Below, piece by piece: positions 3,245 through 30,587 of a stretch of DNA of 64,000 nt. A program made the position numbers and the translations under genes. Origin of the DNA: an uncultured Poribacteria bacterium (GTDB taxonomy: Bacteria; Poribacteria; WGA-4E; WGA-3G). Below the pieces are notes generated by a model. The model was not told the origin of the DNA. It saw only the letters and a list, made by a program, of their open reading frames with translations, and did no database searches. Within the stretch, counting starts at the first letter, position 1; every line of letters begins with the position of its first letter. The DNA lies in NCBI GenBank assembly GCA_951828385.1, contig OX639973.1, positions 4,889,200 through 4,953,199 of the forward strand, read 5' to 3'.

Positions 3245-3533
3245 GTTTTTCAAGTATTTTCCTCACCCCGTATGAAGATTAAGAATTTAATCGGGTAATT
3301 TTCAGTTTTTTTATAGGACTCGGTGCGGTTAGGAAACCGCACCTACCGGACCTGGAGTAAATTACCCAGTTTATTTTTTAACCTTCATTAGGGGTGTTAT
3401 AGTGAATCCTAAAAATAAATAGACACATTCGTACCACAAACTTCCAGTTTGTGCCAGTCTGAATGCCTGTTATAGGTATTCAGACTGTTTGAGAGTGCCC
3501 AATTAATTCTAAACTTTACTATATGTCTATAGA
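3245..3533. repeat. Dispersed repeat with inverted 105-bp core (copy A), split by a MITE
   Basis: Copy A shares its left flank, its 14-bp ends (CACCCCGTATGAAG at 3264-3277 and CTTCATTAGGGGTG at 3383-3396) and the right-hand TATGTCTATAG with copy B at 47991-48156. The 105-bp core between the ends (3278-3382) is the near-exact reverse complement of the core of copy B. The core centre is a perfect hairpin, GGTGCGGTT-AGGA-AACCGCACC. The final TAG of the shared right end is the stop codon of the dehydrogenase gene on the other strand. Confidence 0.85.
3398..3523. mobile_element. MITE of about 122 bp flanked by TA, nested in repeat copy A
   Basis: The insert runs between duplicated TA dinucleotides and has imperfect ends: TAGTGAATCCTAAAAATAA on the left, and TAGTAAAGTTTAGAATTAA as the complement of the right end. 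It holds two internal hairpins, one around CTTCCAG and one around GTCTGAATGCC. A second copy lies at 30588-30713. The other copy of the host repeat (near 48143) lacks it and has a single TA, so it gives the empty site. A TA target is typical of elements moved by IS630/Tc1-mariner transposases; the parent element is not in the window. Confidence 0.75.
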
Positions 3534-4546
3534 GCCTGAATTTGCTCCCACGTCTCCGCGTCTATTGGAATACCTTCCCGTTCTCGCTTGCGTTGTTCCT
3601 CCCAACCGCGTTCCCCCGGCATCCGAATTGCCTCAACACCAGCAGCGCGTTTCGCCGATTTGAGATATTCTATAAACCGTTCTATCTCCGCACTGAACCC
3701 CGGAAACCCTCTAAAACTCGCAACGTTGATGACAAGCACAAACAACCCGTTGCCGACGCGGGCATCTTCGCCTTGGCTACACCCGGCACCTGTGAGCGCG
3801 CCTGCCAGAATATCAACAATGACACTCAGACCAAATCCTTTGTGTGCGGCAATCCCACCGAACGGCAATAAGGCAGCAGGTGGCACGCCATAAAAGTCGT
3901 CCGCATTTGTCGTTGACTCACCTTCTGCGTCAATCAACCAACCGTGTGGAAGTACCTCGTCTTGATGCTGCTTAACCCGAATTTTCCCCGATGCGACAAC
4001 ACTTGTGGACATATCCAACACGATTGGATCTTGCCCCTCAATCGGCACAGCACATGCGATAGGATTCGTAGAGAGCCTGCCTTCAACCCCGCCGTGTGGT
4101 GCAACACACGTACCACCCCCGTGGTCGTTTGCCATGAGCAATCCAATCATCTCCGCATCCGCTGCGAGACACGCATATCCACCTAACCGCCCTGCTTCAT
4201 TGCACCGTGAAACAGCAACGGAACTAATATCTGTCTGTTTTGCCTTCTCAATTGCCAATTCAACGGCGCGCGTCGCAATCACCGGACCGAACCCCCAATT
4301 CCCATCTAACACCGCAATGGATGCGGATTCGTGCAGCGTCTCTATTGGAGCATTGGGTTGAATTAACCCTGCTTCCAGTTCGCGTACATATTTTGCGAGA
4401 TGAATAACGCCGTGTGAATCGTGCCCGACACGGTTGGCATCCACCATAGAACGGGTTACGATTTCCGCTTCGGCTGCTGGGATGTTTAATTTTTGGAAGA
4501 CGTTAAGGCAAATAGCGGTAAGTTCTTCTGCTGAGAAATTCGGCAT
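3527..4546 (-). CDS. Malate/L-lactate dehydrogenase family (Ldh_2) oxidoreductase, copy 1 (intact)
   Basis: 339 residues of the YbiC/YlbC/ComC-type NAD(P)-dependent 2-oxoacid reductases, which are unrelated to classical LDH. Visible family features are the N-terminal three-helix region with AEIVTRSMVDANRVGHDSHG, the central GGTCVAPHGG and LSTNPIACAVP stretches, VLDMSTSVVASGKI, and PFGGIAAHKGFGLSVIVDILAGAL near the C-terminus. It is the only one of three copies with an undisturbed C-terminus (ending WEQIQAL) and is therefore the best candidate for the ancestral gene. The substrate may be malate, lactate, ureidoglycolate or a sugar-derived hydroxyacid. It points away from the sigma-factor locus, and its stop codon lies in a dispersed repeat. 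Confidence 0.9.
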   Translation of the reverse strand: MPNFSAEELTAICLNVFQKLNIPAAEAEIVTRSMVDANRVGHDSHGVIHLAKYVRELEAGLIQPNAPIETLHESASIAVLDGNWGFGPVIATRAVELAIEKAKQTDISSVAVSRCNEAGRLGGYACLAADAEMIGLLMANDHGGGTCVAPHGGVEGRLSTNPIACAVPIEGQDPIVLDMSTSVVASGKIRVKQHQDEVLPHGWLIDAEGESTTNADDFYGVPPAALLPFGGIAAHKGFGLSVIVDILAGALTGAGCSQGEDARVGNGLFVLVINVASFRGFPGFSAEIERFIEYLKSAKRAAGVEAIRMPGERGWEEQRKREREGIPIDAETWEQIQAL

Positions 4547-4629
4547 TGCACGGCTCCTTCGCTGGCGAGGTGTTTTTGCTTGGGTGTTTCCCCTAGTAGT
4601 CTGTCCAGTCTAAACCTGGGAGTAGCCCC

Positions 4630-4729
4630 GTTCGTAGTAGGGCAATTCATTGCCCGTTCTGACCGGTGGACGTGCGATAATGCACTTCGCATTTGGGTGA
4701 GTACACCGCAAAATCGCCCTACTACGAAC
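4630..4729. repeat. Long hairpin element with perfect 14-bp inverted ends (copy 1)
   Basis: GTTCGTAGTAGGGC at 4630-4643 is exactly complementary to GCCCTACTACGAAC at 4716-4729. The 72 bases between have further partial self-complementarity. The same element is at 14698-14797. Copy 2 of the locus lacks this whole stretch and joins the flanks directly, so it behaves as a small insertion. Confidence 0.75.
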
Positions 4730-4882
4730 CCATCTATCTACAATTTAAAGATGGACAGACCACAAGGAACCCCGCTATATGAGATGCTGCCATTTTACAA
4801 ATCCCCGTTGGTGTTGTCAAGCACAAATGACGAAAAAAGAATAAGACTTACGCAGCCTTAATTTTTACTAAAGTTTGGACAG

Positions 4883-5020
4883 TTTTTTGTACCATAGGAA
4901 ACCGTTAGTCTCCTGTGGCTCTTTTGTACCATAGGCTGTTAGCCTGTGGCTCTTTGTAGCATAGGAGACCGTTAGTTTCCTGTGGCTCTTTTGTACCATA
5001 GGAAACCGTTAGCCTGTGGC
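4883..5020. repeat. Tandem array of four 31-37 bp hairpin units
   Basis: Each unit reads TTTTGTACCATAGG, then a variable heart, then CCTGTGGC; CCATAGG pairs with CCTGTGG through one wobble pair. The hearts alternate between a short form (CTGTTAG) and a longer form (AAACCGTTAGTCT). Four units occur here, four in the identical array at 14951-15088, five at 11464-11632, and a single unit at about 2071-2101. Unit number therefore varies between copies of the same locus. Confidence 0.8.
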
Positions 5021-5303
5021 AAATTCGCAGTTACCATTATTTTTCAGCGAGTTCTGTGGCAGATGAAACACCAAAGAAAATCCTTTCAACCTTTGAGAAC
5101 GCAACTGAAATGCGACATGATGTCCAAACTACTGTAATTTATAGTTAGATATAGACTTTATAATTTTTTATTTCACAAACAAAAAAAATTGGCTTGTTGT
5201 GAGATTTTCCGACGAAATCTGCATTCATGTCTTATGAAAGCACAAAACCTTCGTCCTTTTGAGGTTTGCAATCCTGCTTTCAACTGGAGTGACTCTATGT
5301 CAA

Positions 5304-5918
5304 GTGACTAATGAACAAAGGCGAGATGCAGAACTCGTTCGCCAAATCCTATCTGGAGATGAAGGGGCTTTTGATGCACTTTATAAGCGGCACAAGCAGC
5401 GTATCCACGAATCTATTTTCAATAAAATAGGCGACTGGCACTATGCTGAGGAGCTTACTGATGACACGTTCCTCAAAGCAAAAGAGCATCTGAAAACGCT
5501 TAGAGCACCTGAGAAGGTTTTGAACTGGATGTTCCGCATTGCCAACCAGCTTATCGCGGGTTGGCATAGGGAAAACAAGAAAAAGAAGCGTGTTCTACTG
5601 GAATTCTTCGCTGATGTAGAAGTTACAGCCGCGAATCGGATAGCGGAGGATCACACGCCCTATAAAGAACGATATGAAAAGTTCTGTGAGGCGATAGGGC
5701 AACTGCCTGAATTAGAGCAGAAGATGCTCCATCTACAATTTGAAAACAAGAGTTACGAGGAAATTGCCGAAATATGTGATGTCTCTGTGGGATCTGTAAG
5801 AAATCGGTTGCCTCGGGCAAAGAAGAAACTCGAAGCCTGGGCGGCAGCTTGGAAAGCAGCGAACGCTGAAGGTCGAGACTTGGATTTCTCAGAGTTTGAC
5901 AAGGGAAAAGGTAAATAG
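5304..5918 (+). CDS. ECF-type RNA polymerase sigma factor, copy 1
   Basis: 204 residues from the GTG chosen as start. Region 2 is visible in GDEGAFDALYKRHKQRI and YAEELTDDTFLKA. Region 4 has the helix-turn-helix SYEEIAEICDVSVGSVRNRL after PELEQKMLHLQF. The GTG is preferred because similarity between copies 1 and 3 begins there and the frame upstream diverges. The only ATG with good Shine-Dalgarno spacing (5297) is in another frame and stops after four codons. ECF factors direct polymerase to a small regulon; the genes immediately downstream are the natural candidates. No anti-sigma gene is recognisable beside it. Confidence 0.88.
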   Translation: MTNEQRRDAELVRQILSGDEGAFDALYKRHKQRIHESIFNKIGDWHYAEELTDDTFLKAKEHLKTLRAPEKVLNWMFRIANQLIAGWHRENKKKKRVLLEFFADVEVTAANRIAEDHTPYKERYEKFCEAIGQLPELEQKMLHLQFENKSYEEIAEICDVSVGSVRNRLPRAKKKLEAWAAAWKAANAEGRDLDFSEFDKGKGK

Positions 5919-5998
5919 CACTGTTGTCTCGTTCGCGTCGCGTCTCAGTTGCCTATTGATTTATTTCTCTTTGACAAGAAAGTAAGGCGTGGTGTAAA

Positions 5999-6211
5999 AT
6001 GATTCTTAAGGCTTTATCTCGTATTTTGATTTTACTGTTTTGGGTCGCTGCTTTACCTTTTCAGGCAGCGGCTCACCCATAGCAAGAATTGGGTCGGGAA
6101 GCTTTAAGGAACGTTGTCCGTTATATTCTCATAGGGACCGGCACCCACTTGGGATGGATTGCCTGCGCCTTCCTTTTCTTTGTTGCGTTTGGGCAAGACT
6201 CCCATCCGTAG
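5999..6211 (+). pseudogene. Small membrane protein with in-frame amber (copy 1)
   Basis: A 70-codon frame with an N-terminal hydrophobic signal (ILILLFWVAALPFQAAA) is interrupted by TAG at codon 28 (6080-6082). The frame then continues through EELG-like sequence and a second membrane segment (HLGWIACAFLFFVAFG) to a stop just before the next gene. In the third copy the same place reads TCGTGGCAAG (Ser-Trp-Gln), so TGG became TAG here. Copy 2 carries the same amber. The intact version is at 16069. Function unknown. Confidence 0.65.
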
Positions 6212-6237
6212 AATTCAACCCATAAAGGAGAAATGCG

Positions 6238-6516
6238 ATGTTCCGCAAAATCTTTTTGATGCTTTTTCTGTGTGGACTGACCGGCTTCTCGATGCTGACG
6301 GAATACCGAACCAGTGCGGAGACGTATGCGTGTCAAGTCGCAGGGGGGTGTCGGTTTCCCGAAACACCGCCTGGGTCTCCGTGTGAGACGATCCCCTGTG
6401 TGCATCAAAAACCGATGACAGAACCCGTGATGCGACGTCCAGAAGTGTTTCCGCAAGGATCGACCGACGCTATGTTGTGTCGATGGTGTTCCCTTCGGAT
6501 GTCCTGCGCGCAGTGA
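6238..6516 (+). CDS. Small secreted cysteine-containing protein, copy 1
   Basis: 92 residues after an AAAGGAG ribosome site. The start MFRKIFLMLFLCGLTGFS is a signal peptide. The mature part has scattered cysteines (YACQVAGGC, PCETIPC) and a conserved end, STDAMLCRWCSLRMSC. No family was recognised. The intact relative at 16313 carries about 26 extra residues with further Cys and Pro (CAPSVQLPECEMPAC), so this copy looks internally shortened. It lies between the sigma factor and the anchored protein genes and should be exported with them. Confidence 0.6.
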   Translation: MFRKIFLMLFLCGLTGFSMLTEYRTSAETYACQVAGGCRFPETPPGSPCETIPCVHQKPMTEPVMRRPEVFPQGSTDAMLCRWCSLRMSCAQ

Positions 6517-6579
6517 GTTGATAACAACCGAACACCGACACAGACGTGTGTCGGTGCGAAATATAAAGGAGCATTTAAC

Positions 6580-7272
6580 ATGTTAAAAGACCTTTTCAGC
6601 AACCGCCTTTTTATAGGGGCGTTGGCGTTCTTTGTGTTGTGCGTCTGCGGCAGCCTGCTTTACATGCAGCATGTCAAGAAGCAGACAGCAGAGGATCTGG
6701 CAGCACATAAAGAACGCATCAAAGAACTCACCTCTGAACAGAAACCGACAACCGAAGCACCTGTTGGCGATACCTCGCAGGGTGGGCACGTCCACGCCGA
6801 CGGCACTTGGCACGGTGAACCACATGAGACCCCCTCGCCTGCGGAAGTCGATACGTCCAACCCCGTGCAGGTTTCTGATCTTTCAGCCCCCGCACTGCAA
6901 AGGAGTGACAACACAGGCGCGGGCAACCCGCCACCGTTTGAGAATGTTCCCGTAGACCTTTGGGACTTTGAAGCCACGAAAGCCGCGATGATAGAGAACA
7001 TCAACTTTGTCAAGGCGAACTGGGACCCGAAGGTGTATAACCGTGAAGTGAGCATCGCGAATGCAATCTCGCATAATATAGCGAATGCTACAATGTTGAA
7101 CATCTACACCGCTGAACAGGGACGAGAGTTAAGAGAGTTATTTTCAAACCTTTTGGAGTTTAAAGGTCATGAACCCGGACGTGTTCGGCAGCTCATAAAT
7201 GAAGGGCATACAAATGCTGAAGCGATCCGCATCGCCGCCGAAGAAACGCTACAGCGACAGGGGGTGAAATAA
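6580..7272 (+). CDS. Membrane-anchored protein with His-rich motif, copy 1
   Basis: 230 residues, preceded by AAAGGAG. Residues 8-30 form one membrane helix (RLFIGALAFFVLCVCGSLLYM), followed by a charged juxtamembrane helix. Residues 60-85 contain GDTSQGGHVHADGTWHGEPH, a His-rich motif shared with the copy-3 protein. A proline-rich linker leads to a helical C-terminal half (FVKANWDPKVYNREVS onward). The membrane helix is of the same type as in the proteins at 9330 and 12724, but the C-terminal halves differ, so the family is modular. It overlaps the next gene by one base (TAATG), which implies coupled translation. Function unknown; metal binding by the His motif is only a guess. Confidence 0.65.
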   Translation: MLKDLFSNRLFIGALAFFVLCVCGSLLYMQHVKKQTAEDLAAHKERIKELTSEQKPTTEAPVGDTSQGGHVHADGTWHGEPHETPSPAEVDTSNPVQVSDLSAPALQRSDNTGAGNPPPFENVPVDLWDFEATKAAMIENINFVKANWDPKVYNREVSIANAISHNIANATMLNIYTAEQGRELRELFSNLLEFKGHEPGRVRQLINEGHTNAEAIRIAAEETLQRQGVK

Positions 7273-8546
7273 TGCGACGTAAACATTTGATTTTCGCTGT
7301 TGCTATTTCTCTCCTACTCGGTAGTTTTGTGGCGTTGATTGCGGTTTCACAACAGAAGACCCTTCGCCAACTTGAAAACGAGATGGAAGCAGCGTGGAAC
7401 AACCTTTACAACCCTGAGTATGGTGCTTGGCCGATCTACAAGTCAGCGTTTGATAAGTTGGAGGGGAAGATAAAGAAGTTTATTGAGGATCATGAGAAGT
7501 TGCAGGGTATCAAGTTGTCTCCGAAGTTGGACTGGGCAAGCGCGCTTGTGGATGGTGTCAATAAGAATCTGGAGGCGAAACACTTGAGCACTTCCCTGAG
7601 ACAGCAGTTGTCAGCTATCGAAACGCTCGGCAATGAGGTTGAGTTTTTGTGGCTTGATGTCCAAGCGGCATGGTATGCCTACTATGATGCTGTTGGTGCG
7701 TATAATTATGCGATATCCCCAGAGGAGCGTATTGGTATCACGGAACCGACGAAACTGAGCCCGACGGCGATCTTTTTATGTGCGGGTTCGTGTGATGCGT
7801 TATTTGAGACGGCATCCTTAGCGCAGGTTTCGCATCAGGTGTATTGTCCGGAGAAGCATGGTACCTCAGGTACGACGGGTGTGACGCTTTATGTCTGCTC
7901 AGGCTCTTGCGATCGTTCCGATGAGCATTGGCGTGTCTGCGGTGGGACGTGTGGCAATAAGTATGCGCCGAAGAAGGTTCACCGTCAGGGTAATCATTAT
8001 GTTTGGGTAGCCAACTCCCCGCATCATGTGACGTGTTCGCATGAGTCGTGTGTGGAAACGTATTACACCTGCGAGCATTCGACGTGTCCGAATGCCTCAA
8101 ATCACATCAGTGGTGGAGGGACACCGCCAACGGGTGGCACCCCGTCGATGCATCCGTGTAATGTTCACAACACCACCGTGAGTGGGGATCATTCTTTACA
8201 ATCAAGTTGTTCATCGAGCAATGCCAATGGGACCTGCACCGTGACGAGTTTCTATGCGTGTCAGTCGCATACGCATGTCTACCCGCCGCCACCACCGCCG
8301 ACGGTGAGATGTGGTCGGTCGGCTTGCACGGCATCTGTGAGTTCCTCGACGGAGCATCAAAGCAGTCCGTGTGCTGCGGGGGATACGTATTACACGTGTA
8401 ATCCGAATGTGAATGTCTCGCAATGGGAAAACAGACACCGCGTTCGGACCTGTAGACGCAGTGGGTGCGGTAATACGTGGCAATTGTGTCAGAGTTCAAC
8501 ACCGAGTTGTTCCGCGAAATCGGGAAAACGTTGTTCGGCGCGTTAG
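7272..8546 (+). CDS. Exported cysteine-rich surface protein, copy 1
   Basis: 424 residues. Residues 5-27 are a signal peptide, and residues 35-150 are helical, probably coiled coil (QQKTLRQLENEMEAAWNNL). From about residue 165 the protein is built of Cys pairs spaced as in small disulfide or zinc modules: LCAGSCD, VYCPEKHG, YVCSGSCD, CGGTCGNKY, VTCSHESC, YTCEHSTCPN, then a shared end (VRCGRSACT, YTCNPNVN, RTCRRSGCGNTWQLC). The spacing recalls double-CxxC knuckles, but I cannot assign a family. The final 95 or so residues are nearly identical to those of the protein at 17356, while the middles differ. Its start overlaps the stop of the gene before it. Confidence 0.65.
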   Translation: MRRKHLIFAVAISLLLGSFVALIAVSQQKTLRQLENEMEAAWNNLYNPEYGAWPIYKSAFDKLEGKIKKFIEDHEKLQGIKLSPKLDWASALVDGVNKNLEAKHLSTSLRQQLSAIETLGNEVEFLWLDVQAAWYAYYDAVGAYNYAISPEERIGITEPTKLSPTAIFLCAGSCDALFETASLAQVSHQVYCPEKHGTSGTTGVTLYVCSGSCDRSDEHWRVCGGTCGNKYAPKKVHRQGNHYVWVANSPHHVTCSHESCVETYYTCEHSTCPNASNHISGGGTPPTGGTPSMHPCNVHNTTVSGDHSLQSSCSSSNANGTCTVTSFYACQSHTHVYPPPPPPTVRCGRSACTASVSSSTEHQSSPCAAGDTYYTCNPNVNVSQWENRHRVRTCRRSGCGNTWQLCQSSTPSCSAKSGKRCSAR

Positions 8547-8562
8547 TCGGTGTTTGTTAACG

Positions 8563-9085
8563 ATGTCTGAAACACAATCCACCTCTGACCTGAAACGCAG
8601 AAAAGACGCTGCGCGGGCGCGTGCCACCGGCAGCGTCTTTTCTTGTGGTCTTTTGATTGCGGGTGCGTTTGTCTTACTGGCGACCGTCTTTGGATTCCAG
8701 ACACCGCCGGCGATCGAGACTCCAAGCGTGAAGGGGATCGCACCGCCACCGCCGCGTCGCGTGGACTTCACCCCGCAAAGCGTCTTTGAGGTCTCCGAAA
8801 CCCACTATCGCCTCATCATAGAGAATAACCTGTTCCGTCCGTTAGGGTGGACACCGCCGCGCCCGATAGAACCCTATCGTCTCATCGGAGAACCCGAAAC
8901 TTGCGTCAGACGAGACCACACCCCCACAAGCAATTCTACAATCCACCACAGGACATCAAACATATATCGTGACATTAGGCTCAAACCTCGACGCGGACAC
9001 CGAAGTGGTAGACATCCAGTCGAAGCAGGTGACACTCTCCACGCGGGGGCAGCACCGCACACTAATGTTACCGATCGGTTTCTAA
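8563..9085 (+). pseudogene. GspC-like inner-membrane protein, frameshifted (copy 1)
   Basis: The first frame gives a cytoplasmic N-terminus, one membrane helix (VFSCGLLIAGAFVLLATVFGF), a proline linker and the motif YRLIIENNLFRPLGW...YRLIG. That motif resembles the homology region of type II secretion protein C and of pilus PilP-like proteins. Near 8890 homology moves to another frame, which continues ASDETTPPQAILQSTTGHQ, YIVTLGSNLDAD, and ends LMLPIGF at a TAA (9083). One small indel therefore breaks the gene. The copy at 18683 has the same break plus two more lesions. The role in secretion is inferred from the motif only. Confidence 0.6.
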
Positions 9086-9231
9086 CTTCTTTGGGCGAAA
9101 CGCCGACCTCTGGATCCAATGAAGGACCGCCAACGGAGCAGTGTTGGCAGATTTCGCGCTTTCCACTCACTATCTTATATTGCTTGCTTGCCTACGGATG
9201 CGTGATTCCAAAGTTCTATGTGTGTTTTTTG

Positions 9232-9260
9232 TTGACACGTTTTTTTATTTCTGCTATGCT
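9232..9260 (+). promoter_or_regulatory. Consensus-like sigma-70 promoter before the duplicated-domain protein
   Basis: TTGACA at 9232-9237, a 17-base spacer and TATGCT at 9255-9260 lie 70 bases before the ATG at 9330. The equivalent place in copy 2 (near 13475) reads TTCACA with TATCCT and is followed by unrelated sequence, so there the promoter has decayed. Confidence 0.65.
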
Positions 9261-9329
9261 ATTACTACTGCTGAGGTTTGGACGATTTTTTGGGCTTGAC
9301 TGGAAATCCCTCAGAATAGGAGCATAGAA

Positions 9330-10457
9330 ATGTTGCGAGAAGTTTTCAGGTCTCGTATGTTTTTTGTTGGTTTGTTGTTTTTTGTGTTGATAGTTGTGGG
9401 TAGAGTGTTTTATTTCAAGCATGCCGAGCGCGAAGCAGCCGAGGACTTGGTGCGTCTTCCAGAGAGAGTGAAACCGTTAACTGAGGCACAAAAACTGACG
9501 TATCACGCTGAACTCCTTGAGACCCATCCCGTGGAAGCCCTCCGACAGCAAGCCCGAGAATTAGGGCATTGGAGTTCGGAACACATCCCACCGTTCCCAC
9601 CCGAGGACCCAGAGGCTGCTAATTTCGCACGCGACTTATATATCATGAGGTACTATAAGTATACCGGACAGATAGACGACCCCGCATACCTCGCAGCTGA
9701 TCAAGCACAGGGTGAATTCCGCCACGCCTTAAGCGATCATGTCGTGGAAACCCCCTGGGAACATGCTCGGAAATTGGATTTAAAGAAGTTAACATGGCCG
9801 GATACGACCGGACTGTCGGGCTTAGCGACAACGTCCTGGGTGACAACCTTCACAGAGGGAATCAATCCCGAAAGCGCACGTTCCTTATATCCGATAGAAC
9901 TTGAGAACTCAAATTTGGGAAGGCGCGACAGCCAGCAACGCCCTGCAAAAACGGACACACCACAGGACGACATGTTGCCTGATACGGTTTCCAACCCCAC
10001 AGGGACATGGAAGCCACTGACGTATCACGTTGAACTTCTTGAGACACACCCTGTGGAAGCACTCCGTCAGCAAGCCTGGGAATTAGGGCATTGGAGTGCG
10101 GAACACATCCCACCGTTCCCACCAGAAGACCAAGAGGCAGCCGATTTCGCACGAAACACCTATCTGTTTCTATACTATATGCGAACAGGACAGACCGACC
10201 ACCCTGCCTACCTCGCAGCGATGAAAGCACGAAGAGATTTCTACCATACCATACGTCGCGACTATGATGCTGGTTTTAAAAACCCGTGGGAATTTGCCCG
10301 TAATTGTGATTTGCAGAAAATAACATGGAGCATGATCCCACCCTTGAACCCGAACCGCTGGCCGACAACCTTCACAGAGGGGATCAACCCCGAAAGCGCA
10401 CGCCCTCTACTTCCGTTTGAACTCGATGAGTCACTGTGGCGGCGAACATCTGACTGA
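9330..10457 (+). CDS. Membrane-anchored protein with two tandem 140-residue repeats
   Basis: 375 residues after AATAGGAGC. Residues 9-30 form one membrane helix (RMFFVGLLFFVLIVVGRVFYF) much like that of the proteins at 6580 and 12724. Two repeats follow, about residues 56-205 and 231-372. Each begins LTYHxELLETHPVEALRQQA, passes through HWS.EHIPPFPPED and YLAA, and ends TTFTEGINPESAR. The repeats differ at many positions, so the duplication is not recent. No family was recognised. It has its own promoter and has no counterpart in the other two copies of the locus. Confidence 0.65.
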   Translation: MLREVFRSRMFFVGLLFFVLIVVGRVFYFKHAEREAAEDLVRLPERVKPLTEAQKLTYHAELLETHPVEALRQQARELGHWSSEHIPPFPPEDPEAANFARDLYIMRYYKYTGQIDDPAYLAADQAQGEFRHALSDHVVETPWEHARKLDLKKLTWPDTTGLSGLATTSWVTTFTEGINPESARSLYPIELENSNLGRRDSQQRPAKTDTPQDDMLPDTVSNPTGTWKPLTYHVELLETHPVEALRQQAWELGHWSAEHIPPFPPEDQEAADFARNTYLFLYYMRTGQTDHPAYLAAMKARRDFYHTIRRDYDAGFKNPWEFARNCDLQKITWSMIPPLNPNRWPTTFTEGINPESARPLLPFELDESLWRRTSD

Positions 10458-10673: not shown

Positions 10674-11342
10674 CTACAGAGCGGACCTGTGAAGGTGGAA
10701 GAACTGATAACATAGACCTCTCAAGTCAATCAACCAACCGTGCGGAAGTGCCGCGTCCTGATGCCGTTTAACCCGAATCTTTCCCGATGCGACAGTGCTT
10801 GTAGACATATCCAACACGATCGGATCTTGCCTTTCAATCGGTACGGCACATGCGATCGGATTCGTAGAGAGCCTGCCTTCAACCCCGCCGTGTGGTACAA
10901 CACACGTACCACCCCCGTGATCGTTTGCCATGAGCAATCCAATCATCTCCGCATCCGCTGCGAGGCACGCATACCCGCCTAACCGCCCCACCTCATTGCA
11001 CCGTGAGACAGCAACGGAACTGATGTCCGTCTGTTTTGCCTTTGCAATCGCCAATTCAACGGCGAGCGTCGCAATCACAGGACCGAACCCCCAATTCCCA
11101 TCTAACACTGCAATGGGTGCGGATTCGTGCAGTGTCTCTATTGGAGTATTGGGTTGAATTAATCCTGCTTCCAGTTCGCGTACATATTTTGCGAGATGAA
11201 TAACGCCGTGTGAATCGTGCCCGACGCGATTCGCATCCACCATAGAACGGGTTACGATTTCCGCTTCCGCTGCTGGAATGTTTAATTTTTCAAAGACGTT
11301 AAGGCAAATAGCGATAAGTTCTTCTGCTGTAAAGTTCGGCAT
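10674..11342 (-). pseudogene. Ldh_2 family dehydrogenase, copy 2, C-terminally truncated
   Basis: From MPNFTAEEL at 11342 the product follows copies 1 and 3 to HGWLID (about residue 205), then runs into 16 unrelated residues and a stop. About 130 C-terminal residues are lost, including the PFGGIAAHKGFG substrate and cofactor region, so it should be inactive. It differs from copies 1 and 3 at more positions than they differ from each other, for example SMVDANR retained but LAVELAIAKAK for RAVELAIEKAK. It is the oldest or least homogenised of the three. Confidence 0.8.
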
Positions 11343-11463
11343 TGTGATGCGGCTCCTTGTATAAGGTGCCGCTATTTTACAAATCCCCGTTGGTGTTGTC
11401 AAGTGGAAATGACGAAAAAAGAATAAGACTTACGCAGCCTTAATTTTTACCAAGTTTGGACAG

Positions 11464-11632
11464 TTTTTTGTACCATAGGAAACCGTTAGCTTGTGGCTCT
11501 TTTGTACCATAGGAAACCGTTGGTCTCCTGTGGCTCTTTTGTACCATAGGCTGTTAGCCTGTGGCTCTTTTGTACCATAGGCTGTTAGCCTGTGGCTCTT
11601 TGTACCATAGGAGACCGTTGGTATCCTGTGGC
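11464..11632. repeat. Tandem array of five hairpin units (copy 2)
   Basis: These are the same CCATAGG...CCTGTGG units as at 4883, but five of them, ending directly at the truncated sigma gene. Here the array abuts codon EKV of the sigma factor, so the deletion that removed its first half used or created an end at the array. Confidence 0.75.
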
Positions 11633-11633
11633 A

Positions 11634-12046
11634 AAAAGGTTTTGAACTGGATGTTTCGCCTAGCCAACCAGCTTATCGCGGGTTGGCATAGAAAAAACAA
11701 GAAAAAGAAGTGTGTTCCACTGGAATTCTTCGCTGATGTAGAAGTTACAGCTGCCGACGCGAATTGGATAGCGGAGGATCACACGCCCTACGAAGAACGA
11801 TATGAAAAGTTCTGTGAGGCGATAGGGCAACTGCCTGAATTAGAGCAGCAGATGCTCCATCTACAATTTGAAAACAAGAGTTACAAGGAAATTGCCGAAA
11901 TATGTGATGTCTCTGTGGGATCTGTAAGAAATCGGTTGCCTCGGGCAAAGAAGAAACTCGAAGCCTGGGCGGCAGCTTGGAAAGCAGCGAACGCTGAAGG
12001 TCGAGACTTGGATTTCTCAGAGTTTGACAACGGAAAAGGTAAATAG
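11634..12046 (+). pseudogene. ECF sigma factor, copy 2, N-terminally deleted
   Basis: Sequence equivalent to residue 72 onward of the other copies (KVLNWMFRLANQ to the C-terminus). Region 4 and its helix-turn-helix (SYKEIAEICDVSVGSVRNRL) are intact, but most of region 2, which binds core polymerase and the -10 element, is missing. The frame is open upstream only because it reads through the hairpin array. It is not expected to function as a sigma factor. Confidence 0.8.
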
Positions 12047-12126
12047 CGCTGTTGTCTCGTTCGCGTCGCGTCTGAGTTGCCTATTGATTTATTTCTCTTT
12101 GACAAGAAAGTAAGGCGTGGTGTAAA

Positions 12127-12360: not shown

Positions 12361-12371
12361 GGAGAAATACG

Positions 12372-12658: not shown

Positions 12659-12723
12659 GTCGATAGAACCCAAACGAAACCCGATACAGACGTGTGTCGG
12701 AACTCAAAACAGGAGTATTTACA

Positions 12724-13122
12724 ATGTTAAAAGACGTTTTCAGCAACCGCCTTTTTATACGCGCGTTAGCGTTCTTTGTGTTGTGCGTTGGCGGCAGCCT
12801 GCTTTACATGCAGCATGTCTCTAAGCAGTCCGCCCGTGAGTCTGATACCATGCAGGACCCCTCCGCTGAATCCTCACGCAGAGAGTGGAGAAAGTGGCAC
12901 GACGAATGGAGTCGATTGGCTAAGGAACATGTCCAAACCACTCAGGAATGGATAGACGCGCTGCCACAGACGCCAGAGGAGTTGGAACGCTTCAATACTG
13001 ACGAGAGTTACAAGCGAGAAGTGCAACGCCAACTGCAAGCGGCTATGGATAAAGATGCGAAGGCATACGTAAGGCTGCAAGAGCATGAGAAAACAAGACC
13101 TACGATTCCACCTACCCGGTAA
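12724..13122 (+). CDS. Chimeric membrane-anchored protein (copy 2)
   Basis: 132 residues after a CAGGAG site. Residues 1-36 (FSNRLFIRALAFFVLCV and the QHV end) match the anchor of the copy-1 protein at 6580. From SDTMQDPSAESSRREWRKWH to the end it matches the C-terminal half of the copy-3 protein at 16736 almost perfectly. The His-rich linker of both parents is missing. It is thus a fusion of two paralogues, formed by recombination or deletion between copies, and it keeps an open frame. Helical C-terminal domain of unknown function. Confidence 0.65.
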   Translation: MLKDVFSNRLFIRALAFFVLCVGGSLLYMQHVSKQSARESDTMQDPSAESSRREWRKWHDEWSRLAKEHVQTTQEWIDALPQTPEELERFNTDESYKREVQRQLQAAMDKDAKAYVRLQEHEKTRPTIPPTR

Positions 13123-13155
13123 TTCGGGTGACACTTCTCAAAGGAGTTAGGATAT

Positions 13156-13354
13156 ATGAAAATTAGAACATTTTTCAGTCTGCTGTCTCTTGGCACAAGA
13201 CCTCTCGCACCTGCAAGCGGGCGAATTGTGGTGCGAGTTATACCAAAGGTTCAAACCTTGACGCGGACACCCAAGTAGTAGACATCCAGTCGAAGCAGGG
13301 GACACTCTCCACGCAGGGCAGCACCGCACACTAATGCTACCGATCGGTTTCTAA
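13156..13354 (+). pseudogene. Remnant joining start of surface-protein gene to end of GspC-like gene
   Basis: The first 35 or so bases equal the start of the gene at 17356 (KIRTFFSLL). The sequence then jumps to the tail of the GspC-like pseudogene (LDADTQVVDIQSK onward to the TAA at 13352). About 1.6 kb has been deleted relative to copy 3. No function is expected. Confidence 0.7.
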
Positions 13355-13496
13355 CTTCTTTGGGCGAAACGCCGACCTCTGGATCCAATAGAGAACCGCC
13401 AGTCACTACCTTATATTGCTTGCCTGCCTACGGATGCGTAACCACAAAACCCTATGGGCATTTTTTCTTCACACGTTTTTTGTTTCTGCTATCCTA

Positions 13497-13635
13497 TTGC
13501 CTGCTCTAATAATTCTGCTAACTGATCAGCAAAGCGGAATTGGCTATCGTCCTCCGGCGCGTAGTCTATTACCTTCCGAGCGTTGGCAATGCTCCAAAAC
13601 TTGTGCGTATTATCGCTGATGCCATAAAAAATTCG
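13497..13635 (-). pseudogene. C-terminal fragment of the NAD-dependent epimerase
   Basis: On the minus strand this encodes IFYGISDNTHKFWSIANARK, then VIDYAPEDDSQFRFADQLAE and LLEQA, matching the last 46 or so residues of the epimerase at 19431 with several substitutions. It is fused at its upstream end to the dehydrogenase copy 3. It marks a duplication breakpoint: the unit that was copied ended inside the epimerase gene. Confidence 0.8.
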
Positions 13636-14614
13636 GAATACCTTCCCGTTCTCGTTTGCGTTGTTCCTCCCAACCGCGTTCCCCCGGCATCCGAATTGCG
13701 TCAACGCCAGCAACGCTTTTCGCCGATTTGAGATATGCTATAAACCGTTCTATCTCGGCACTGAACCCCGGAAACCCTCTAAAACTCGCAACGTTGATGA
13801 CAAGTACAAACAACCCATTACCGACGCGGGCATCCTCGCCTTGGCTACACCCGGCACCTGTGAGCGCGCCTGCCAGAATATCAACAATAACGCTTAGCCC
13901 AAATCCTTTGTGTGCAGCAATCCCACCGAACGGCAATAAAGCAGCCGGTGGCACGCCATAGAAGTCGTCCGCATTTGTCGTTGACTCACCTTCTGCGTCA
14001 ATCAACCAACCGTGCGGAAGTACCTCGTCCTGATGCTGTTTAACCCGAATTTTTCCCGATGCGACAACGCTTGTGGACATATCCAACACAATCGGATCTT
14101 GTCCCTCAATCGGCACAGCACATGCGATCGGATTCGTAGAGAGTCTGCCTTCAACCCCGCCGTGTGGTGCAACACACGTACCACCGCCGTGATCGTTTGC
14201 CGTGAGCAACGCGATCATTTCCGCCTCTGCTGCGAGGCACGCATATCCACCTAACCGCCCCACCTCATTGCACCGTGAGACAGCAACGGAACTGATGTCT
14301 GTCTGTTTTGCCTTCTCAATTGCCAATTCAACGGCGCGCGTCGCAATCACCGGACCAAACCCCCAATTCCCATCTAACACTGCAATGGATGCGGATTCGT
14401 GCAGTGTCTCTATTGGAGTATTGGGTTGAATTAATCCTGCTTCCAGTTCGCGTACATATTTTGCGAGATGAATAACGCCGTGTGAATCGTGCCCGACACG
14501 GTTGGCATCCACCATAGAACGGGTTACGATTTCCGCTTCGGCTGCTGGGATGTTTAATTTTTGGAAGACGTTAAGGCAAATAGCGGTAAGTTCTTCTGCT
14601 GAGAAATTCGGCAT
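13610..14614 (-). CDS. Ldh_2 family dehydrogenase, copy 3, with replaced C-terminal tail
   Basis: 334 residues, nearly identical to copy 1 through EEQRKREREGIP. The last 12 residues of copy 1 are replaced by NFLWHQR, read out of frame from the epimerase fragment next to it. All family stretches (VGHDSHG, GGTCVAPHGG, LDMSTSVVASGKI, GGIAAHKGFG) are kept, so activity is possible. The upstream region is identical to that of copy 1. Confidence 0.85.
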   Translation of the reverse strand: MPNFSAEELTAICLNVFQKLNIPAAEAEIVTRSMVDANRVGHDSHGVIHLAKYVRELEAGLIQPNTPIETLHESASIAVLDGNWGFGPVIATRAVELAIEKAKQTDISSVAVSRCNEVGRLGGYACLAAEAEMIALLTANDHGGGTCVAPHGGVEGRLSTNPIACAVPIEGQDPIVLDMSTSVVASGKIRVKQHQDEVLPHGWLIDAEGESTTNADDFYGVPPAALLPFGGIAAHKGFGLSVIVDILAGALTGAGCSQGEDARVGNGLFVLVINVASFRGFPGFSAEIERFIAYLKSAKSVAGVDAIRMPGERGWEEQRKREREGIPNFLWHQR

Positions 14615-14697
14615 TGCACGGCTCCTTCGCTGGCGAGGTGTTTTTGCTTGGGTGTTTCCCCTAGTAGTCTGTCCAGTCTAAACCTGGGAGTAGCCCC

Positions 14698-14797
14698 GTT
14701 CGTAGTAGGGCAATTCATTGCCCGTTCTGACCGGTGGACGTGCGATAATGCACTTCGCATTTGGGTGAGTACACCGCAAAATCGCCCTACTACGAAC
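14698..14797. repeat. Long hairpin element (copy 3)
   Basis: Second copy of the element at 4630-4729, with the same perfect 14-bp inverted ends. Confidence 0.75.
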
Positions 14798-14950
14798 CCA
14801 TCTATCTACAATTTAAAGATGGACAGACCACAAGGAACCCCGCTATATGAGATGCTGCCATTTTACAAATCCCCGTTGGTGTTGTCAAGCACAAATGACG
14901 AAAAAAGAATAAGACTTACGCAGCCTTAATTTTTACTAAAGTTTGGACAG

Positions 14951-15088
14951 TTTTTTGTACCATAGGAAACCGTTAGTCTCCTGTGGCTCTTTTGTACCAT
15001 AGGCTGTTAGCCTGTGGCTCTTTGTAGCATAGGAGACCGTTAGTTTCCTGTGGCTCTTTTGTACCATAGGAAACCGTTAGCCTGTGGC
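14951..15088. repeat. Tandem array of four hairpin units (copy 3)
   Basis: I see no difference from the array at 4883-5020. The rest of 14615-15373 holds no gene; it repeats the copy-1 intergenic region, with differences appearing only after about 15258. Confidence 0.8.
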
Positions 15089-15373
15089 AAATTCGCAGTT
15101 ACCATTATTTTTCAGCGAGTTCTGTGGCAGATGAAACACCAAAGAAAATCCTTTCAACCTTTGAGAACGCAACTGAAATGCGACATGATGTCCAAACTAC
15201 TGTAATTTATAGTTAGATATAGACTTTATAATTTTTTATTTCACAAACAAAAAAAATTTGCCCGTTGTGAGATTTTCCGACGAAATCTGCATTCATGTCT
15301 TATGAAAGCACAAAACCCTCATTTTGATTTTGAGGTTCGCAATTCTGCTTTCAACTGGAGGATTCTATGTCAG

Positions 15374-15988
15374 GTGACCGATGAACAAAGGCGAGATGCA
15401 GAACTCGTTCGCCAAATCCTATCTGGAGATGAAGGGGCTTTTGATGCACTTTATAAGCGGCACAAGCAGCGTATCCACGAATCTATTTTCAATAAAATAG
15501 GCGACTGGCACTATGCGGAGGAGCTTACTGATGACACGTTCCTCAAAGCGAAAGAGCATCTGAAAACGCTTAGAGCACCTGAGAAGGTTTTGAACTGGAT
15601 GTTTCGCCTCGCCAACCAGCTTATCGCGGGTTGGCATAGGGAAAACAACAAAAAGAAGCGTGTTCTACTGGAATTCTTCGCTGATGTAGAAGTTACAGCC
15701 GCGAATCGGATAGCGGAGGATCACACGCCCTATAAAGAACGATATGAAAAGTTCTGTGAGGCGATAGGGCAACTGCCTGAATTAGAGCAGCAGATGCTCC
15801 ATCTACAATTTGAAAACAAGAGTTACGAGGAAATTGCCGAAATATGTGATGTCTCTGTGGGATCTGTAAGAAATCGGTTGCCTCGGGCAAAGAAGAAACT
15901 CGAAGCCTGGGCGGCAGCTTGGGAAGAAGCAAACGCCGAAGGCCGAGACTTGGATTTCTCAGAGTTTCATGAGGGGACAGATAAGTAG
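15374..15988 (+). CDS. ECF-type RNA polymerase sigma factor, copy 3
   Basis: 204 residues from GTG, more than 95 percent like copy 1 by eye. Changes include MFRLANQ for MFRIANQ and a different last eight residues (FHEGTDK). Regions 2 and 4 are complete. As in copy 1, the well-spaced ATG (15367) leads only to a five-codon frame that overlaps the GTG. This copy heads the best-preserved set of downstream genes and is therefore the likeliest functional member. Confidence 0.88.
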   Translation: MTDEQRRDAELVRQILSGDEGAFDALYKRHKQRIHESIFNKIGDWHYAEELTDDTFLKAKEHLKTLRAPEKVLNWMFRLANQLIAGWHRENNKKKRVLLEFFADVEVTAANRIAEDHTPYKERYEKFCEAIGQLPELEQQMLHLQFENKSYEEIAEICDVSVGSVRNRLPRAKKKLEAWAAAWEEANAEGRDLDFSEFHEGTDK

Positions 15989-16068
15989 CACTGTTATCTC
16001 GTTCGCGTTGAGTCTTAGTTGCCTATTGATTTATTTCTCTTTGACAAGAAAGTAAGGCGTGGTGTGAA

Positions 16069-16404
16069 ATGATTATTAATCCCTTATCTTGTGTTTTGAT
16101 TTTACTGTTTTTAGGAGCCGCCTTGCCTTCTCTGGCAGTTGCTCACTCGTGGCAAGAATTGGGTCGGGAAGCTTTAAAGAACGTTGTCCGTTATATTCTC
16201 ATAGGGACCGGCACCCACTTGGGATGGATTGCCTGCGCCTTCCTTCTCTTTTTTTATTCCGGTCATAAGGCAATACCCCAAAAGTTTTTTCAACCCCTAA
16301 GGGAGAAATGCGATGTTCCGCAAAATCTTTTTGATTCTTTTTCTGTGTGGACTGACCGGTTTCTCGGTGCTGACGGAAGACCGCGGCAGTGCCGAGACGT
16401 ATGA
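16069..16404 (+). CDS. Small membrane protein, intact copy 3
   Basis: The only copy without the amber. It has a signal segment (LSCVLILLFLGAALPSLAVA), then HSWQELGREALKNVVRYILI, then a hydrophobic stretch (HLGWIACAFLLFFYSGHKA). In copy 1 the frame ends just before the next gene. Here it runs on 92 bases into the next gene in a different frame, so the natural C-terminus is probably about 75-80 residues and the tail is a by-product of a small indel. No family was recognised. It lies directly after the sigma factor. Confidence 0.5.
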   Translation: MIINPLSCVLILLFLGAALPSLAVAHSWQELGREALKNVVRYILIGTGTHLGWIACAFLLFFYSGHKAIPQKFFQPLREKCDVPQNLFDSFSVWTDRFLGADGRPRQCRDV

Positions 16405-16669
16405 GTGTCAAGTCGCGGGGGTGTGTCGGTTTCCCGAAACACCCCCGCCGTGTGAGATGATCCCCTGTGCGCCTTCTGTGCAACTGCCAGAGTGTGAGAT
16501 GCCCGCCTGTTCAGCCGTCCCGCATCCATTGGTTCACCGCCGGTGTGTGCCTTCGTGGCAAAAACAGATGACAGAACCCGTGATGCGAAGTCCAGAAGTG
16601 TTCCCTCAACGATCGACCGACGCCATGCTGTGTCGATGGTGTTCACTTCGGATGTCCTGCGGGCAATGA
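16313..16669 (+). CDS. Small secreted cysteine-rich protein, intact copy 3
   Basis: 118 residues with a GGGAGAA ribosome site. It has a signal peptide (MFRKIFLILFLCGLTGFS), then about a dozen cysteines in short Pro-rich stretches (CQVAGVCRFPETPPPC, IPCAPSV, PECEMPACSA) and the conserved end LCRWCSLRMSCGQ. The even number and spacing suggest disulfides after export. This is the longest of the three family members. No known family. Confidence 0.6.
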   Translation: MFRKIFLILFLCGLTGFSVLTEDRGSAETYECQVAGVCRFPETPPPCEMIPCAPSVQLPECEMPACSAVPHPLVHRRCVPSWQKQMTEPVMRSPEVFPQRSTDAMLCRWCSLRMSCGQ

Positions 16670-16735
16670 GTTGATAGAACCCAAACCGAACACCGACACC
16701 GACGTGTGTGGGTGTGCAAATCAAGGAGAACAACC

Positions 16736-17323
16736 ATGTTTATCCGAAAATACTGGCTACCGCTGTCGGTGTTTTTGGTGACAATCGCAGGCGTGGGACT
16801 TTACCTGCTCGCGACGCAGCCACCGAAAGAACCGATCAAGGTTTACAAACTTGTTGAACCGATAGAGAAACCGACAACCCAAGCACCTGTTGGCGATACC
16901 TCGCAAGGTGGACATGTCCACGCCGACGGCACTTGGCACGAGGGACCGCATGAACCGGTGGAACAGCCATCGACCGCAGATGGGAATCCACCGCAGTTGC
17001 ATGTGGAACCCCCATCGGTGATTGCACAAGGAAACCCAACCTCTGATACCATGCAGGACCCCTCCGCTGAATCCTCACGCAGAGAGTGGAGAAAGTGGCA
17101 CGACGAATGGAGTCGATTGGCTAAGGAACATGTCCAAACCACTCAGGAATGGATAGACGCGCTGCCACAGACGCCAGAGGAGTTGGAACGCTTCAATACT
17201 GACGAGAGTTACAAGCGAGAAGTGCAACGCCAACTGCAAGCGGCTATGGATAAAGATGCGAAGGCATACGTAAGGCTGCAAGAGCATAAGAAAACAAGAC
17301 CTGCGATTCCACCTACCCGGTAA
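16736..17323 (+). CDS. Membrane-anchored protein with His-rich motif, copy 3
   Basis: 195 residues from the ATG after AAGGAG. It has an N-terminal membrane helix (WLPLSVFLVTIAGVGLYLLA) unlike that of copies 1 and 2. It shares APVGDTSQGGHVHADGTWH with copy 1 and the C-terminal helical domain (SSRREWRKWHDEWSRLAKEH) with copy 2. It is therefore the donor of one half of the copy-2 chimera. The C-terminal domain is rich in Trp, Arg and Glu and probably all-helical. Function unknown. Confidence 0.65.
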   Translation: MFIRKYWLPLSVFLVTIAGVGLYLLATQPPKEPIKVYKLVEPIEKPTTQAPVGDTSQGGHVHADGTWHEGPHEPVEQPSTADGNPPQLHVEPPSVIAQGNPTSDTMQDPSAESSRREWRKWHDEWSRLAKEHVQTTQEWIDALPQTPEELERFNTDESYKREVQRQLQAAMDKDAKAYVRLQEHKKTRPAIPPTR

Positions 17324-17355
17324 TTCGGGTGACACCCTCAAAGGAGTTTAGATAT

Positions 17356-18666
17356 ATGAAAATTAGAACATTTTTCAGTCTGCTGTGTCTTGTTTTGATG
17401 ATGTTGCTGTTCTGCGGGGCTCCGCTGACTGTTCACGCCGACCCCTGTGCGTCATACAGAAGTGATTATGAAAGCAAAAATCTAGCGTTTTTATCAGCGC
17501 AATCTAATGCGCAGCGCATGAAAGTCGCAACCGCTAAAGCTACAAATACAAAAGTCGGTCCTGAACTAAAGGATTTAGAAGATGAATACGATGCAGGTCC
17601 ACAGTCTTTTTTGAAGAGCTTGCTGGACTCGGTGTCTGTGCATCCGAACGTATCCTCTAACGCTTCCGCGTTTTTCGGTTCACTTCTCAATAACATAAGC
17701 CAGGCGCAACTCTTTACAGCGGCTTTCTATGCAGGCCAAGCTTACACATCTGCCCAGTCTGCGCTCGTAGCCGCCGAAGCGGCACTCGCCAATTGTACCG
17801 GTCAGTCGATTCTGACGGTCTGGTGTGAAAGAGGTGCGAAATGCAAGACCCCGCCGGGCGTGAAGAATTACCCAAGAGATCATTACGTTACCGACTGCTC
17901 TAATGATGTTGAAGGGGCATTCAACCTCAATGTGGGGTGTCCGGGGGAGTGGTGGAAATGTGATGGCAAGAACGTCTGTCCTCGCAGTTCGGATCATGTT
18001 GTCACTTGTAAAGGTGCCCCGGAGTGTGATGATATGATTGGTCCTGACCGCCAGTCAAGTTACCATCAAATTCTTTGTGAAACGAATGAGGCGTTTATCG
18101 GCTGTGGTCAAAAGTATAGTATTTGCTCAAAATCGCAGAAGCAGGCACACAGGGGAGTCGGTAGATGTCCGCTGTCCAACAATTCTGGCAACCCGGGCGG
18201 CACCACCGGTACCAATCCTGTCACTGCAAATCCTCCGGCCGGCACGACGAACCCTCCCGCGGACCCCCCGCGTCCGTGTGGTCATAGCACGTCCGCGAGT
18301 GGAGATCATTCGCTCCAAGCGAGTTGCACTTCTACGGATGCCAACGGGAACTCCTGCACGGTGACGAGTTTCTATGCGTGTCAGTCGCATACGCATTCAT
18401 ATCCAGAACCGCCACCGCCGACGGTGAGATGTGGTCGTTCGGCTTGCACGGCATCTGTGAGTTCCTCGACGGAGCATCAAAGCAGTCCGTGTGCTGCGGG
18501 GGATACGTATTACACGTGTAATCCGAATGTGAATGTCTCGCAATGGGAAAACAGACACCGCGTTCGGACCTGTAGACGCAGTGGGTGCGGTAATACGTGG
18601 CAATTGTGTCAGAGTTCAACACCGAGCTGTTCCGCGAAATCGGGAAAACGTTGTTCGGCGCGTTAG
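17356..18666 (+). CDS. Exported cysteine-rich surface protein, copy 3
   Basis: 436 residues from the ATG after AAGGAGTTT. Signal peptide (FFSLLCLVLMMLLFCGAPLT), a helical part (residues 30-145), then Cys-rich modules: VWCERGAKC, VTDCSND, GCPGEWWKCDGKNVCP, VTCKGAPEC, then a Gly/Thr/Pro linker with NPPAGTTNPPADPP. The last 110 or so residues equal those of the protein at 7272. The N-terminal two thirds are unrelated or very divergent, so the conserved part is the C-terminal cap, perhaps a sorting or assembly domain. No family was recognised. Confidence 0.65.
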   Translation: MKIRTFFSLLCLVLMMLLFCGAPLTVHADPCASYRSDYESKNLAFLSAQSNAQRMKVATAKATNTKVGPELKDLEDEYDAGPQSFLKSLLDSVSVHPNVSSNASAFFGSLLNNISQAQLFTAAFYAGQAYTSAQSALVAAEAALANCTGQSILTVWCERGAKCKTPPGVKNYPRDHYVTDCSNDVEGAFNLNVGCPGEWWKCDGKNVCPRSSDHVVTCKGAPECDDMIGPDRQSSYHQILCETNEAFIGCGQKYSICSKSQKQAHRGVGRCPLSNNSGNPGGTTGTNPVTANPPAGTTNPPADPPRPCGHSTSASGDHSLQASCTSTDANGNSCTVTSFYACQSHTHSYPEPPPPTVRCGRSACTASVSSSTEHQSSPCAAGDTYYTCNPNVNVSQWENRHRVRTCRRSGCGNTWQLCQSSTPSCSAKSGKRCSAR

Positions 18667-18682
18667 TCGGTGTTTGTTAACG

Positions 18683-19207
18683 ATGTCTGAAACACAATCC
18701 ACCTCTGACCTGAAACGCAGAAAAGACGCTGCGCGGGCGCGTGCCACCGGCAGCGTCTTTTCTTGTAGTCTTTTGATTGCGGGTGCGTTTGTCTTACTGG
18801 CGACCGTCTTGGACTCCAGGCACCGCCGGCGATCAAGACTCCAAGCGTGAAGGGGATCGCACCGCCACCGCCGCGTCGCGTGGACTTCACCCCGTAAAGC
18901 GTCTTTGAGGTCTCCGAAACCTACTATCGCCTCATCATAGAGAATAACCTGTTCCGTCCGTTAGGATACCGGACACCGCCGCGCCCGATAGAACCCTATC
19001 GGCTCATCGGAGAACTCGAAACTTGCGTCAGACGAGACCACACCCCCACAAGCAATTCTACAATCCACCACAGGACATCAAACATATATCGTGACATTAG
19101 GTTCAAATCTCGATGCGGACACCCAAGTGGTAGACATCCAGTCGAAGCAGGTGACACTCTCCACGCGGGGGCAGCACCGCACACTAATGTTACCGATCGG
19201 TTTCTAA
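18683..19207 (+). pseudogene. GspC-like inner-membrane protein, frameshifted (copy 3)
   Basis: It carries the same frameshift after RLIG as the copy at 8563. It also has a one-base loss in the run after ACCGTC (near 18812) and a stop where copy 1 has CAA (CCCCGTAAAG near 18894). The start, membrane helix and NNLFRPLG motif are still readable. It is clearly dead. Confidence 0.65.
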
Positions 19208-19430
19208 CTTCTTTGGGCGAAACGCCGACCTCTGGATCCAATGAAGGAGCACCAACGGAGCAGTGCTGGTAGATTTCGCGCATTCCACTCACCACCTTTT
19301 ATACTTTCTGCTTGCTACAACTGGTTCAAAGCCTCCATGTGAAAAGTGTCATGCACCTTACAAGTCGTTAATTTCTTCAGATGGAATCGCGGCCAGAGGT
19401 CGCTCCTACAGAAAGAAGGGGAATTGCACG

Positions 19431-30498: not shown

Positions 30499-30587
30499 CC
30501 CTTCTCGCTGATAGAATAGAAAAAATCACTTGACATCCGAGGTATATTGCTGCTAAATTTTCTATGCAGGACTGAAGGGATGCTTTT

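Follow-up and report, generated by a model that had tools for sequence, protein, structure and literature searches.

A recurrent putative export module with exchangeable parts at an island hotspot in a Poribacteria genome

We analysed a window of 64,000 nucleotides (4.889–4.953 Mb of a single-contig, 6.66-Mb genome) from an uncultured member of the Poribacteria, a phylum known from sponges. In it, three side-by-side copies of a sigma-factor locus occupy the interval between an Ldh2-type dehydrogenase gene and an epimerase gene, and the sigma factor is followed by genes for small membrane and secreted proteins, here called A, B, C and D. We propose, with moderate confidence, that A-B-C-D is a horizontally traded, cassette-swapping export module, often provided with its own regulator, and that an island of such modules was gained at a hotspot and then partly overwritten by gene conversion.

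Three copies at an island hotspot

Self-BLAST of the window and a repeat search resolve the copies c1 (3527–10457), c2 (10725–13634) and c3 (13635–19302), in agreement with an earlier description made from the bare letters (the sequence-only reading). The repeated unit that it described is recovered in every copy by Pfam and pattern searches (a minus-strand Ldh_2 dehydrogenase, PF02615; a hairpin array; an extracytoplasmic function (ECF) sigma factor, PF04542 and PF08281; then the small membrane and secreted proteins), and so is the unequal decay, with c2 faring worst: its Ldh2 and sigma genes are truncated and its C gene is deleted. The island now consists of two nearly complete copies and one wrecked copy (Table 1). 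Copies c1 and c3 are 94.5% identical over 2847 bp (3567–6403 against 13635–16472) and 93.8% identical over 1037 bp in a second block (8150–9180 against 18270–19302); about 1.5 kb of c1 (6.7–8.15 kb) cannot be aligned with the corresponding part of c3, and c2 resembles c1 and c3 in blocks, at 86–98% identity.

Because Ldh2 and the epimerase are direct neighbours in eight congeners (same strand, 31–59 bp apart) and varying cargo lies beside Ldh2 in 11 others (in 3 of which the epimerase falls beyond the fetched stretch), the interval is a hotspot for accessory islands. The gap holds 1.9–5.8 kb of differing cargo in other congeners and 14.9 kb in the window, and what lies beside Ldh2 is an A-B-C-D module, an AAA_35 ATPase, or a sigma factor accompanied by secreted or coiled-coil proteins of various kinds. 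Related modules are found elsewhere in the same genome as well. A search of 84,980 species with the C-terminal domain of C found 33 loci, all of them in Candidatus Poribacteria, and among whole genomes the matches are restricted to one genus.

Table 1. Coordinates of the features of the island and its borders, numbered within the window
Feature	Position	Strand	Remarks
Ldh2 (malate/L-lactate dehydrogenase family), copy 1	3527..4546	-	Full length; PF02615 2-333/333, E 1e-104; congener orthologues 82-90% DNA identity
Tract of c1 identical to c3 14436-15258	4368..5190	.	Recent conversion; alignment, permutation
Hairpin array, copy 1	4885..5022	+	Dispersed repeat family, not locus-specific
ECF sigma factor, copy 1	5259..5918	+	Start codon uncertain; PF04542/PF08281, TIGR02937
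A1	6238..6516	+	92 aa; N-terminal hydrophobic segment, Cys/Pro tail; homologues upstream of B at L039, L042
B1	6580..7272	+	One N-terminal membrane helix, HxHxDGTxH linker, variable C-terminal half; no significant Pfam/NCBIfam match
C1	7272..8546	+	Starts like a signal peptide; N-half variable, Cys/His-rich C-terminal domain (8151-8546) constant; no Pfam/NCBIfam match
D1, GspC/PilP-like	8563..9082	+	Broken by a frameshift at some point from ~8890 to ~8915; GspC HR fold in intact relatives
E1, B-like membrane protein	9330..10457	+	B-type variable domain present twice; L038 encodes a 99.7% identical protein
Ldh2, copy 2	10674..11402	-	C-terminal third lost; homology begins at 10725
Hairpin array, copy 2	11466..11634	+
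Sigma factor, copy 2	11636..12046	+	N-terminal region lost; open frame 11561-12046 begins within hairpin array
B2, hybrid	12694..13122	+	Resembles c1 at the N-terminus and c3 (98% identity) at the C-terminus
Remnants of C2 (first codons) and D2	13158..13350	+
Epimerase 3' fragment, diverged allele	13494..13634	-	Joined to copy 3 Ldh2; 82-85% to local epimerase
Ldh2, copy 3	13610..14614	-	Last codons replaced by junction at 13635
Hairpin array, copy 3	14953..15090	+
ECF sigma factor, copy 3	15302..15988	+
A3	16313..16669	+	118 aa
B3	16706..17323	+	Constant and variable parts unlike B1
C3	17329..18666	+	Matches C1 in the C-terminal domain (18271-18666; 91% identity), with an unrelated N-half
D3	18683..19204	+	Broken by frameshifts
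Epimerase, intact	19431..20258	-	PF01370; in empty genomes directly before Ldh2, same strand (synteny)

Conversion and the origin of the copies

The sequence-only reading had pointed to some 700 bp of identical intergenic DNA in c1 and c3 as a trace of gene conversion. The identity is real, but the tract measures 823 bp and extends into Ldh2, so that it covers the first 59 codons of that gene together with the intergenic stretch, in sequence that otherwise diverges by about 5%. When the 159 differences between c1 and c3 were permuted, the longest identical run reached at most 214 in 5000 trials, which bears out conversion between these two copies.

When all three copies are compared, the closest pair changes along their length: 13|2 at the 5' end of Ldh2 (17:0:0), 12|3 at the C-terminus of sigma (up to 18:1:1), 23|1 in A and 12|3 at the start of B. 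Synonymous divergence (dS) runs from 0 (C-terminus of sigma, c1–c2, where 79 codons hold no synonymous difference) to 0.29 (Ldh2, c1–c2) within about 2 kb, and the B gene of c2 is c1-like at its start and then 98% c3-like. Such sharp changes of partner argue that the mosaic of the three copies is the product of repeated conversion. For Ldh2, c1 and c3 differ with a dS of 0.196 (0.245 outside the identical tract) and a nonsynonymous divergence (dN) of 0.012, and c1 and c2 with a dN of 0.033; dN/dS is about 0.06–0.16 at a dS of 0.2–0.29.

Plain tandem duplication of the resident locus, followed by decay and gene conversion and with no outside DNA, is the rival that survives best, and we judge it rather unlikely. 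It would account for the c1/c3 tract, for the clean junction of c2 and c3 (where the 3' end of the epimerase is fused to the 3' end of Ldh2 at a GGAA microhomology) and for the clustering of the Ldh2 genes of c1, c2 and c3, with a fragment at a further locus (L038, at 6.22 Mb), apart from those of other species (tree support 87/80, moderate). The epimerase fragment at the junction speaks against it: over 136 bp it shows 22 differences from the local gene, 17 of them at third codon positions (dS 1.4, dN 0.04), which is too diverged and too selected for a local scrap, and it is equally close to other species and to the local gene. The B/C blocks of c1 and c3, moreover, are unrelated to each other. 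Since a scrap cannot itself acquire a signature of protein-level selection, the fragment most likely diverged within a working gene of another lineage, and because it did so under purifying selection, we favour the import of island and flank from relatives by recombination. A similar epimerase fragment in another genome, G018, is 91% identical to the gene of G019 and 77% identical to G018's own. The idea that a single locus multiplied in place is likewise not supported by the relatives, whose sites are empty or hold other cargo, nor by the third-position bias of the epimerase scrap.

Variable cassettes and their regulators

The variation that had been predicted for the locus is real, and it lies in the N-half of C and the C-half of B. 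The rest of both proteins is constant: the C-terminal domain of C occurs in seven copies in the genome, and Cys or His accounts for 14 of the invariant positions in this domain. C, which the sequence-only reading had taken for a surface protein, has a signal-peptide-like N-terminus. Neither B nor C matched a family in Pfam or NCBIfam, which is why annotation leaves this gene set hypothetical, and a sequence-profile search of the constant part of C against the PDB gave nothing real. Of the 33 loci, about 22 have B upstream of C and 15 have D downstream of it (some contigs are cut). Loci with similar variable parts of B also tend to have similar variable parts of C (26–27 loci; Mantel r 0.61, p 2e-4; rank-based 0.33, p 2e-4), and this co-variation persists when both constant parts are taken into account (partial Mantel r 0.33, p 2e-4).

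Judged by its alignments, L038 is a clear case of cassette exchange: over the 2019 bp that run from B to where the constant part of C begins, it is 82.7% identical to locus L052 of another species, and beyond that point it is 96.9% identical to c1 (98% over window positions 8142–10834). Because constant sequence lies on both sides, the B/C block appears to be swapped as a unit; homologous recombination in the constant flanks would exchange it whole and would yield new exported proteins while pairing and export are kept. The dispersed modules keep their own B start, their own C signal peptide and often their own regulator.

Two arrangements of these genes may be recorded here. Within E1, the segments 9494–9731 and 10016–10253 are duplicates (78%) of one domain, which at other loci makes up the variable half of B. 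At L176 (G000:C1:3.600–3.612 Mb) the order is ECF sigma, B, C-like, D and B-like, and the C-like protein is devoid of the constant C-terminal domain.

A sigma-class gene on the same strand ends 270–1030 bp before B at 15 of the 30 loci with enough upstream sequence (two of the 15 are remnants and three are the tandem copies in the window); as controls, the same regulator queries hit none of 27 stretches (1.1 kb each) taken downstream of C and 1 of 300 chosen at random. Four kinds of regulator precede B, namely the ECF type of the island, other ECF types, group-3 sigma-70 factors and a sigma-54 activator. The sigma factor was therefore not the multiplying element that the sequence-only reading had made of it, given that A-B-C-D modules elsewhere have other regulators or none. 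The island's sigma factor is a member of the ECF group (PF04542 33.5 bits, cut-off 24; PF08281 52.2, cut-off 25.7; TIGR02937 73, cut-off 42.9), and its type is confined in this genome to this island. Searches of Pfam and NCBIfam gave no anti-sigma match for B, C or E, with A covered only via its homologue at L039; the cytoplasmic end of B is very short. The reading frame of A is open in both c1 and c3. There are 97 ECF-type hits in the genome, and many come from long fusion proteins of a different sort: open frames near 1000 aa (L016, L019 and L007, for example) that combine an ECF sigma domain with a membrane helix and an extended extracytoplasmic part resembling a beta-propeller.

We rejected the idea that the hairpin array is a regulator specific to this locus, because it is a dispersed repeat: its pattern matches 11 times in the window (0 expected), and exact matches number 20 in the whole genome and 21 in G003. 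At another locus, L043, a hairpin array (6236–6355) adjoins a transposase-like gene (6396–7364). Positions 4592–4766 of the window hold a repeat resembling a miniature inverted-repeat transposable element, with inverted ends (TTCGTAGTAGGGC...GCCCTACTACGAA), which is present in many congeners, and 3264–3523 hold two intergenic repeats with additional copies at 48010–48142 and 30587–30713.

Antigenic or adhesive variation, in which silent and expressed copies recombine and so alter a surface protein, would fit the variable blocks set between constant flanks, the dispersed partial copies, the tracts left by conversion and the exchange of cassettes. We nevertheless hold this explanation to be improbable: the loci do not resolve into one expression site with silent donors, each module resembles a stand-alone operon, often with its own regulator, and the differences are seen between loci and between species. 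A lower probability still attaches to B and C as a toxin/immunity or competition pair that spreads as polymorphic toxins do. Co-varying variable domains in adjacent genes, carriage on accessory islands and a hotspot beside a PARIS-like defence pair would be in keeping with it; B, C and D, however, match no toxin, nuclease, immunity or defence family in Pfam, NCBIfam or PADLOC, and the layout is reversed, the constant part being C-terminal in the secreted partner and the other partner upstream and membrane-anchored. Least credible of all is an assembly artefact, with co-existing strains strung into one contig, since, even if the copies lie about 5% apart outside the converted tract, as strain alleles might, and the relatives are metagenome assemblies of uncultured bacteria, the genome is one 6.66-Mb contig, the copies hold private cargo and sequence, the mosaic L038 elsewhere shares pieces of c1 and Ldh2, and islands with epimerase scraps recur in independent assemblies.

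Two further features deserve mention. At 20350–22256 (minus strand) lies a pair of genes for an AAA ATPase and a TOPRIM-like protein that resembles AriA/AriB of the PARIS defence system (PADLOC E 4e-28 and 7e-8); its presence and identity vary among congeners (about 35–80%), and neighbouring genes stand at about 85–95%. The AAA_35 ATPase recurs as cargo of the Ldh2/epimerase hotspot in three congeners (L141, 9905–11527; L144, 10249–11844; L147, 9280–10875).

A possible link to the secretin, and comparison with known systems

Intact relatives of D consist of one membrane helix at the N-terminus, then a linker, then an HR-type domain of six strands (pLDDT above 90 for the HR part of the AlphaFold2 model). 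In Foldseek the model matched PilP, LspC, GspC HR and PulC HR with probability 1.0 (3oss_C at TMt 0.81 and 6hcg_e at 0.74, E-values 0.005–0.018), and the modelled structure thus shows a GspC-type HR fold. By sequence the relatives score 15.7–26.0 bits against T2SSC (PF11356), below the cut-off of 27, and 19 against NF041515 (cut-off 150); a sequence-profile search of D against the PDB gave nothing real. The genome has one secretin gene (L175), beside PilM-like and T2SSK genes, and the D homologues are encoded away from it. D homologues occur in 50 of the 50 genomes searched, and their number tracks that of C (rho 0.62): exactly one in half of the congeners without C, and 3–20 in genomes with C. 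L177 was dropped as a candidate core GspC; among the matches listed, its close orthologues (92–93%) are in G010, G020 and G029 only, and the L179-type form of ~270–370 aa recurs across the genus.

Taken together, these observations suggest how the proposed export module might work. An accessory island of regulator and A-B-C-D would have been inserted between the epimerase and Ldh2, enlarged from relatives and partly overwritten by conversion. The sigma factor would drive its own A-B-C-D; C would be exported; B, anchored in the membrane, would pair with the variable part of C as a matched chaperone, receptor or anchor; and D, to judge from the models, may be an extra clamp of GspC/PilP type that links the B/C pair to the cell's secretin machine. 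A bolder version, which we offer as speculation and regard as doubtful, would make the island a self-contained retooling kit for one shared secretin, with D as the exchangeable clamp that gives a new substrate, B as the matched partner of a variable C, the constant end of C as a tag for export or anchoring, often a regulator of its own, and B/C swapped across loci and species.

Several points weigh against the export-module proposal. D is broken in all three copies and at L038 (frameshifted in c1, c3 and L038), so that the module here is decaying, relies on a D from elsewhere or functions without one of its own. About half of the modules have no recognised upstream regulator; some of the regulator queries were derived from the loci themselves, a bias that the same-query controls reduce incompletely. 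The co-variation comes from 26–27 loci in few genomes, and the controls only partly remove shared descent of whole loci. The AlphaFold model of C1 was poor (pLDDT 47 from 14 sequences, with no meaningful Foldseek match), which leaves C without an assigned fold. Finally, the low dN/dS of the full-length Ldh2 copies also fits the less favoured alternative of an old duplication in place with both copies kept working.

The choice of substrates by the type II secretion system (T2SS) is a long-standing question, in which GspC is one of the suspected readers. GspC-type proteins multiplied beside variable, putatively secreted proteins would offer natural matched and mismatched pairs for testing that choice. 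By exchanging cassettes between constant flanks, and by changing the type of regulator as well, an uncultured symbiont phylum may diversify what it exports towards its sponge host. The analysis also singles out B and C as a gene set that is widespread in one Poribacteria genus and left hypothetical by annotation pipelines.

In the open-access papers searched, we found no described precedent for the combination of a sigma factor, a variable secreted protein, a membrane partner and a GspC-like protein; four kinds of known system come closest. ECF sigma factors are expanded in many environmental bacteria, and the standard ECF domains and the large genomic complement here conform to that picture; the difference is that in other modules a group-3 sigma factor or a sigma-54 activator stands in place of this ECF type. 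Lif is a membrane-anchored steric chaperone paired with a lipase exported by the T2SS, and the adjacent one-helix, periplasmic-type B and putatively exported C, presumably matched to each other, resemble such a pair; however, B and C have no family match to Lif or lipase, B lies upstream of C, and both vary as a block. The gene-conversion cassette systems pilE/pilS and vlsE likewise use constant ends to guide the recombination that swaps a variable block, whereas here there is no array of silent copies with a single expression site, the block spans two genes, and the modules often have their own regulators. With T2SS GspC and type IV pilus PilP, the relatives of D share one helix, a linker and a six-strand HR domain, but D is too short for a PDZ or coiled-coil part, scores under the family cut-offs, and is found in multiple copies beside a predicted secreted protein, outside the secretin operon.

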